25,099 bases of DNA. Source: a virus. A program made the translations under genes and the position numbers. Below the pieces are notes generated by a model. It was not told where the DNA came from. It did not search any database and saw only the letters and a program-made list of their open reading frames with translations. Location of the stretch: the IMG/VR virus record IMGVR_UViG_3300027708_000278, positions 1 through 25,099 of that record; one strand, 5' to 3'. Below, piece after piece: positions 12,322 to 21,861 of this stretch. The stretch's first letter is position 1, and the number at the start of each line of letters is the position of its first letter.

Positions 12322-12365
12322 TTGGAATCCAATCTATCTTACTAACCCTTGTGGTTAATAAGATA

Positions 12366-20534: not shown

Positions 20535-20575
20535 CATTACTTCCTTTCGTCGTTTGGCTGGGTGGCCGTAGGATA

Positions 20576-20584
20576 ATTATATCA
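20576..20584 (-). promoter_or_regulatory. Extended -10 promoter that doubles as stop codon
   Basis: TGATATAAT for the AAA gene; TGA (20584-20582) ends the upstream gene. Predicted start near 20569. Confidence 0.78.
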
Positions 20585-21043
20585 GGCGAATAGAGACTCG
20601 CCGAAGTTTAGAGCGCGGCGGCAACGAGTGATGCGACCGAGAATTTTGTAAGGAGTCTTACCTTGGCGGATATCTTGCATATCCTCAGGGGTTACCTCAA
20701 CTGCAATTGGTTGCTTGTACAACGTGTAACCTTTTGCGATGAGCTGGTTGAACAGGTTGTTTGTAAATGAGATGCGATCTGGGAACGTAGCTTTTGCGTG
20801 GTCAGTTCCAAGTTGTAGAATTGCCCCAGATGATGAGTCAACTTCACTGATAGTACTTGAAGCGATTGCGCGCCATGATCTACGTGGTGTTGCCGCAGAG
20901 ATACTTCTACGGTAGCATGTCATTGGTACTGTCTTACCTGCAATGGACGTTAGTCCCTCAGGGGTAATGATAACCTGAGTTGTTTGGGAACCGGACCTCA
21001 ATTCGAGATACAGCGCCTTTCCGACAACTGATGTGTTTGTCAT
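20582..21043 (-). CDS. Protein of unknown function upstream of the AAA/VWA pair
   Basis: A 153-residue protein with strands at the N-terminus (ALYLELRSGSQTTQVIITPEGLTSI), a Ser/Arg-rich middle and TDHAKATFPDRISFTNNLFNQLIAKGYTLYKQPIAVEV. The motif NLFNQLIAKGY with a preceding acidic region suggests a compact alpha/beta fold. Not recognised. Its stop is shared with the AAA promoter. ATG 21043 follows ACGGAAAGGA. Confidence 0.75.
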   Translation of the reverse strand: MTNTSVVGKALYLELRSGSQTTQVIITPEGLTSIAGKTVPMTCYRRSISAATPRRSWRAIASSTISEVDSSSGAILQLGTDHAKATFPDRISFTNNLFNQLIAKGYTLYKQPIAVEVTPEDMQDIRQGKTPYKILGRITRCRRALNFGESLFA

Positions 21044-21548: not shown

Positions 21549-21584
21549 GGGCTTTTCCTTCCGTCGTTTGTTTGGTACTGGATA

Positions 21585-21593
21585 ATTATATCA
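21585..21593 (-). promoter_or_regulatory. Extended -10 promoter whose hexamer holds a stop codon
   Basis: TGATATAAT; TAA in the hexamer (21588-21586) ends the upstream 51-residue gene. Predicted start near 21578. Confidence 0.78.
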
Positions 21594-21741
21594 GGCTGGG
21601 CTTCTCCATAAGGTCGTTACCCACGAGTATTGAAGTAATGAACTCGATCTTTTCATAGTCAGCTCTATTTCCTTCAACGACATAGACTATGTCCTTTAGG
21701 ATAGCTTCGTAGATCTCTTCCCAATTTCTATCTGTTGGCAT
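21586..21741 (-). CDS. 51-residue protein with structured leader
   Basis: MPTDRNWEEIYEAILKDIVYVVEGNRADYEKIEFITSILVGNDLMEKPSLI, mainly helical and acidic; not recognised. ATG 21741 follows GAAGGAAGGA. The last residues and the stop are encoded by the next promoter. Its mRNA would start with an 80-nt structured element (21767-21845), unusual for a gene this small. Confidence 0.77.
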   Translation of the reverse strand: MPTDRNWEEIYEAILKDIVYVVEGNRADYEKIEFITSILVGNDLMEKPSLI

Positions 21742-21766: not shown

Positions 21767-21845
21767 TATACACGGGGCACCGGGATTGTTTCCGCCCCGC
21801 ATGCGTTCCGAGCGTTCAGGTGACCACCGGTGGACCCCGTGTATA
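21767..21845 (-). ncRNA. Structured 5' leader RNA
   Basis: TATACACGGGG (21767-21777) pairs with CCCCGTGTATA (21835-21845), and CACCGG (21778-21783) continues with CCGGTG (21827-21832), giving about 17 bp with a two-base bulge. Inside are a CGCTC/GGGCG stem and a GCATGC palindrome. The predicted transcript start (21844) falls at the base of this helix. It could be a regulatory leader, a riboswitch of unknown type or a small RNA; I do not recognise a known class. Confidence 0.6.
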
Positions 21846-21850
21846 AGCTA

Positions 21851-21859
21851 ATTATATCA
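21851..21859 (-). promoter_or_regulatory. Extended -10 promoter for structured leader
   Basis: TGATATAAT; predicted start 21844, the first base of the structured leader. Confidence 0.77.
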
Positions 21860-21861
21860 GG

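Follow-up and report, generated by a model that had tools for sequence, protein, structure and literature searches.

The DNA analysed here encodes what appears to be a new phage RNA family, family A, for which no earlier description was found in Rfam 15 or the open-access literature. On the comparative evidence below, we give slightly more than even weight to the reading that its members are stand-alone, homodimerising small RNAs that often double as the 5′ leader of a gene. The copy under study lies on the minus strand of the window (the whole stretch of 25,099 nucleotides), an IMG/VR record that is a fragment of a large tailed phage. The phage's terminase and AAA ATPase are 78% and 68% identical, respectively, to those of DSL-LC01, a 129-kb phage from a Dishui Lake metagenome with its host listed as Actinomycetia (PMC10611076), and their next-nearest relatives belong to Microbacterium and Gordonia phages. 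Given these affinities, the host is probably a freshwater actinobacterium.

A conserved RNA fold in related actinophages

On the minus strand, the promoter TGATATAAT (21859-21851) is followed by TAGCT, the fold (21845-21767), CCUAACAUU, the Shine-Dalgarno (SD) sequence GAAGGAAGGA and an ATG at 21741. The features, all on this strand, are as follows:

21851-21859, minus strand: extended -10 promoter TGATATAAT, TGaTATAAT type, hexamer at 21856-21851; supported by the repeated motif and by its spacing in homologues
21767-21845, minus strand: the whole family A RNA; supported by folding, covariance-model matches, covariation and an independent consensus fold
21835-21845, minus strand: P1 5′ arm, 11 bp, from the predicted +1; pairs with 21767-21777
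21767-21777, minus strand: P1 3′ arm; perfect complement of 21835-21845
21827-21832, minus strand: P2 5′ arm CACCGG, 6 bp; pairs with 21778-21783
21778-21783, minus strand: P2 3′ arm CCGGUG; covariation with 21827-21832
21815-21826, minus strand: internal loop, 5′ side, UGGUCACCUGAA; near-invariant columns, consensus about UGGYCAMMYNAA
21784-21792, minus strand: internal loop, 3′ side, GAAACAAUC; near-invariant columns in the family alignment
21810-21814, minus strand: P4 5′ arm CGCUC, 5 bp; covariation with 21793-21797
21793-21797, minus strand: P4 3′ arm GGGCG; covariation with 21810-21814
21798-21805, minus strand: 8-nt palindrome CGCAUGCG, with GGAA before it; proposed homodimer kissing site
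21586-21741, minus strand: 51-codon open reading frame (ORF), SD GAAGGAAGGA at 21757-21748; downstream, predicted to be co-transcribed, not conserved with the RNA

The RNA is predicted to form a rod of about 80 nt, made up of P1, a 2-nt bulge, P2, the internal loop, P4 and a 12-nt loop, GGAA-CGCAUGCG. A first-pass annotation of this DNA had described a 17-bp interrupted helix and a GCATGC palindrome; the former resolves into P1 (11 bp) and P2 (6 bp), and the latter is contained in the 8-nt palindrome CGCATGCG (21805-21798). The minimum free energy of 21845-21767 is -38.4 kcal/mol, with a z-score of -3.2 against dinucleotide shuffles that drops to -1.5 once the flanks are included in the fold. 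Since the z-score weakens in this manner, we dropped folding energy alone as proof and used covariation instead; it is the comparative evidence that lifts the fold well above chance.

Related actinophages yielded family A homologues, on about 60 IMG/VR contigs in all, with one or two copies per record. A covariance model built from five sequences gave 28 matches in a set comprising the window, locus L055 and 80 loci gathered solely via the neighbouring ATPase. Through a 14-mer from the internal loop, four more phages sharing the core were recovered; of the 119 stretches that the first 14-mer scan returned, most were set aside as chance matches. The rebuilt covariance model yielded 37 matches at E <= 2e-7 in 91 sources and none from there to E = 1, and two pattern scans added a second phage set (24 loci, E <= 7e-14); four of the nine records tested from this set encode a terminase that shares 79-81% identity with that of the window. 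Because parts of the internal loop served as search pattern, some of its conservation follows from the search itself, the members found next to the ATPase being freer of this bias; pattern scans also miss members whose internal loop has diverged, and the family may therefore be more widespread. Many related records do not carry the RNA, and the covariance model found no match in the complete records of the related phages DSL-LC01, Pumpernickel, Cece, A3Wally, Forza and GMA2, indicating that the RNA is accessory rather than core. Beyond these phages, a pattern scan of GTDB contigs returned five chance matches only, all without the structure, no family A RNA was found in 395 bacterial genomes (the class of an Arthrobacter genome), and a similarity search against annotated phages, with 13 variants joined as the query, gave no convincing match for the RNA.

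Among 43 distinct homologues, in an alignment fitted to the model and hence biased toward it, 92.4% of the pair cells were standard, as compared with 33-40% when partners were slid by 1-3 columns, and the covariation score was 0.713 (slid partners scored 0.04-0.13, shuffles 0.218). The first-pass annotation had proposed a covariance-model search from homologous leaders, and had held that a lack of compensatory changes would speak against the structure; the search did recover homologues with such changes, and 20 of the 22 pairs had changed on both sides with pairing kept, a clear result in favour of the fold. Double-sided changes affected all 11 pairs of P1 (96% of cells paired), five of six in P2 (85%) and four of five in P4 (92.5%), the last helix occurring as CGACU/GGUCG, CCACU/GGUGG, GAGU/GCUC, CAACC/GGUUG and GGGGU/GCCCC. 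An independent RNAalifold consensus contained 17 pairs, 16 of them with double-sided changes, and recovered P1, the P2 core and P4. Taken together, these comparisons establish P1-P2-internal loop-P4 as a conserved RNA fold, as judged from the sequences.

Both the palindrome and the long inverted repeat are also present in the DNA, and one could imagine a palindromic DNA site for protein binding, recombination or replication that merely resembles an RNA. We consider this hardly probable. The helices of the transcribed strand contain 28 G-U against 3 A-C pairs, a one-strand bias to which a single, mostly U-G column contributes 22 of the 28 (6 G-U against 2 A-C without it). Moreover, the element lies at a fixed distance from either of two promoter types and keeps its pairing while the sequence changes, and the palindrome varies in a way that a sequence-specific protein would not tolerate.

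The terminal-loop palindrome

The last 8 nt of the terminal loop, directly 5′ of the P4 3′ arm and preceded mostly by AA or GA, read in one register CGCAUGCG, CGCUAGCG, CUCUAGAG, CUCUAGGG, CUUGCAAG, CCUGCAGG, CUGCGCAG, UCCUAGGA or (a)CCUAGG(g) in different members. Eight of the 11 distinct 8-mers are self-complementary over four symmetric pairs (one via G-U) and a ninth over the inner six, and A-U, U-A, G-C and C-G all occur at the two neighbouring positions in the centre. When the columns of the 11 8-mers were shuffled, the observed self-complementarity score was reached in 0 of 200,000 trials (2 of 200,000 for an earlier set of nine), a figure that somewhat overstates the evidence, as the distinct 8-mers are not fully independent. 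The palindrome was absent from every search pattern. Computed self-duplex energies of the loops lie between -8.6 and -14.3 kcal/mol, whereas the random median is -1.5. The alignment thus demonstrates that the loop stays palindromic as its sequence varies, in keeping with the first-pass suggestion that GCATGC could form a kissing loop.

Because the adjacent central bases covary in Watson-Crick fashion, which is impossible inside one strand, we infer that this pattern is best read as homodimerisation through kissing loops. As in kissing loops of the retroviral type, a self-complementary 6-8-mer follows unpaired, mostly purine bases. In two kinds of phages that carry two copies of the RNA, each loop is predicted to pair well with itself and not with the other (CGCAUGCG/CCUGCAGG in one kind, CUGCGCAG/UCCUAGGA in the other). 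A sub-class (L149, L151 and L153) has its palindrome, UUCUGCAGAA, in a shifted register. In two further copies (L195:2461-2536 and L291:9020-9097) the terminal loop is shortened and the 8-nt palindrome missing, the latter copy keeping a short self-complementary GUAC; these may be decayed or monomeric variants. The sub-class and these two copies count against the proposed homodimer.

A palindromic kissing dimer is likewise seen in the structure of the hatchet ribozyme (PMC7357161), and family A has further traits that would suit a self-cleaving ribozyme of unknown class: a length of about 80 nt, closure by P1, a conserved internal loop and a GAAAC adjoining P4. Nevertheless, we hold this to be very improbable, as there is no Rfam ribozyme match and, with P1 at +1, there is no 5′ leader for cleavage to remove. 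A hammerhead ribozyme has a three-way junction with CUGANGA and GAAA boxes. Reading through the aligned members, we found GAAA after P4 and neither CUGANGA nor a third stem, and a hammerhead-like reading of GAAAC with AUA/AUC was rejected on this ground.

Position at the promoter and independence of the downstream gene

The motif CTGATATAATTA, allowing up to two mismatches, occurs 26 times in the window, as compared with 1.4 expected. Its general form, CTG[A/T]TATAATTA, is an extended -10 with no obvious -35 and stands upstream of many genes of the window phage (e.g., at 21849-21860, 21583-21594 and 20574-20585, three of the 26 sites); the related phage set has TTGAC-type -35/-10 promoters in its place. 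P1 starts 5-6 nt past the -10 hexamer in the window, at the expected +1, so that the structured leader which the first-pass annotation had placed at the predicted start holds up. Leaving aside six members without a cleanly scored spacing, P1 starts 5-8 nt past TATAAT in 28 of the 29 TATAAT-type members and 7 nt past the -10 in the eight members with a TTGACT-type -35/-10 promoter. These spacings firmly place P1 at the predicted +1 behind two promoter types; the transcription start, length and abundance of the RNA are themselves predictions. In the window, 109 nt separate the end of the -10 from the start codon. According to a heuristic table in which some starts are missed, most other leaders with a recognised start measure 26-60 nt, and for two, of 157 and 176 nt, an upstream start was apparently missed.

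As the first-pass annotation had noted, the fold precedes a gene of 51 codons, an ORF with its own SD sequence. Control of this particular gene fell away on comparison, since the ORFs that follow the RNA in homologues are many and unrelated: a different ORF of 56 codons in L140, 54 codons in L137, 97 in L138, 111 in L055 and many others. In L163, L174, L295 and L302 a new promoter follows the RNA. A terminator-like hairpin comes next in L139 and the second copy of L140 (and, by eye, in L232 and L242), with a new promoter behind it, and L298 has a strong terminator-like hairpin after the RNA. Pairs of close relatives are most telling: L302 and L293 are 94-95% identical on both sides, yet the ORF right after the RNA is gone in L302, and L298, 98% identical to L294, has no downstream ORF and keeps promoter and RNA. 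The suggestion that the leader might bind the neighbouring winged-helix protein, which itself had no convincing match among annotated phages, fared no better. RNA and gene often occur apart, 24 of 45 sampled winged-helix loci having no RNA in the sequence examined and many RNAs lying far from the gene, and we rejected this gene as a partner. These genomic comparisons establish that the RNA is independent of its downstream gene. The further option of a separate small RNA thus gains ground, the RNA staying in place while downstream genes swap or vanish. At most loci, an SD and ORF lie close behind the RNA with no terminator between, which is the pattern expected of a cis leader and counts against a stand-alone RNA.

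A riboswitch, or another leader that senses a ligand or protein and controls translation of the next gene, would account for an internal loop of aptamer-like size and an SD within about 20 nt of P1. We find it improbable. Such a leader would be constantly associated with one gene or pathway, whereas the downstream genes here are mutually unrelated and sometimes cut off from the RNA by their own promoter. The earlier statement that no known riboswitch class is recognised agrees with our Rfam 15 scans, in which no family reached its gathering score in the window, a permissive scan of the local stretch (E up to 10) gave chance matches only (e.g., Entero_5_CRE at 15.5 against 46 bits), and eight related loci had no match.

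The stronger competitor is a general-purpose cis element in which a leader at +1 blocks 5′-end-dependent decay, or acts as a put-like antiterminator, for any gene. It fits an RNA that is always promoter-proximal, at the predicted +1 and mostly upstream of an ORF, and it has a precedent in put RNA, which works in cis on RNA polymerase (PMC9378689). Long simple 5′ hairpins (>=8 bp) are also modestly enriched at these promoters (13 observed, 1.7 expected). However, the RNA is kept without a downstream ORF (L302, L298) and before a terminator or new promoter, and a 5′ clamp needs neither a covarying palindrome nor a conserved internal loop. A simple 5′-hairpin cap as the full account was rejected, given the modest enrichment of plain hairpins and the palindrome that it leaves unexplained. 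We keep the cis element as a possible, less probable alternative, because unrelated structured leaders (families B, C and D) also sit at +1 in the same phages.

Several such structures were observed, all four families being present in phage L157. Family B occupies the same +1 position (L157:8808, L164:8788, L170:10800, L206:3708, L174:14569, L176:8875 and L190:3791) and consists of P1 followed by GGAYAUGAAACC - hairpin - CAGACUUUCUUCC. The P1 and inner hairpin of this family both show pairing changes, and its L157 and L190 copies matched nothing in Rfam. Family C is a 60-nt leader, AAGCUCACCGGAACG...CCGGUGAGCUC, at +1 (L157:14072, L146:4835). Family D, a leader of about 115-125 nt closed by GUUCAAGGG/CCCUUGAAC, lies directly 3′ of a promoter (L157:14954, L195:8676, L162:4665, L146:5717) and its L157 and L162 copies likewise matched nothing in Rfam. 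Transcripts elsewhere in the window seem to begin with plain 5′ hairpins (12365-12330 and 12769, minus strand), such as UAUCUUAUUAACC-ACAAG-GGUUAGUAAGAUA after the promoter at 12365. In addition, an apparent long noncoding RNA of about 250-300 nt, GGUUGGACUUGCCAGG..., at L175:7493-7760, directly follows the family A RNA with no ORF and ends at a terminator-like hairpin; it also occurs in L162, L146, L158, L195, L167, L163, L164, L206 and L168, with 70-81% identity among phages and no Rfam match in L175 and L164.

Proposed role and comparison with known RNAs

We arrived at the hypothesis that the selected product is the RNA itself, which would act, in trans or as a ribonucleoprotein, on some factor of the host or the phage while infection proceeds. 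Two copies of this putative stand-alone RNA would kiss via their loops into a long symmetric rod presenting two conserved internal loops, through which a partner might be contacted. P1 at the extreme 5′ end would guard the RNA against 5′-dependent decay, and where a gene follows, the RNA would merely be the first part of that transcript. As a bolder extension, which we regard as rather unlikely, the RNA could be a phage weapon or shield, i.e., a strongly expressed, near-continuous homodimeric rod with two identical internal-loop faces that would trap a host factor such as a dsRNA sensor, ribonuclease or RNA polymerase, or act as its decoy, and would be one of several promoter-fused cassettes swapped between genomes. 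Functional RNA homodimers have been described as rare in nature (PMC7357161), and family A would add evolutionary evidence for self-pairing in an RNA of phages that probably infect freshwater actinobacteria. These phages also seem to hold at least three more uncatalogued 5′-end RNA families, a promising source of new RNA biology.

Some features of family A are shared with known RNAs. Like the put RNA of HK022 (PMC9378689), it is a structured phage RNA near a transcript start; the likeness noted is one of position, and unlike put, a cis antiterminator, family A persists before a terminator or without a gene, which also speaks against put-like antitermination. The pRNA of phi29 (PMC7357161) is likewise a small phage RNA and oligomerises by loop-loop pairing, as we propose for family A. 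However, pRNA uses two different loops and serves the phi29 packaging motor, whereas the palindromic loop of family A would pair with itself, and no comparable link to packaging genes was seen. The self-complementary hairpin loop recalls the HIV-1 dimerisation initiation site, with its 6-nt self-complementary loop and purine flanks (PMC7357161), in another type of virus and RNA. Unlike that site, the family A palindrome (6-8 nt) occupies the 3′ part of its loop and differs greatly between members, and a conserved internal loop interrupts the helix below.

Also among the nearest known systems are GOLLD, ROOL and OLE, ornate RNAs which homo-oligomerise partly via symmetric kissing loops, the first two being phage or prophage RNAs of unknown function (PMC12286853). 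For OLE L9.3 and GOLLD L21a, covarying adjacent palindrome bases were argued to pair only between molecules (PMC12286853), and the family A loop carries a sequence signature of this kind. The Rfam covariance models of GOLLD, ROOL and OLE gave no match to the window or to eight related loci. Phage homo-oligomeric RNAs such as GOLLD, at hundreds of nucleotides, are difficult to study. Unlike GOLLD, ROOL and OLE, which have pseudoknots and are all hundreds of nucleotides long, family A is a single, promoter-fused rod and a possible 5′ leader, and at only ~80 nt, it is suited to direct biochemical and structural work.
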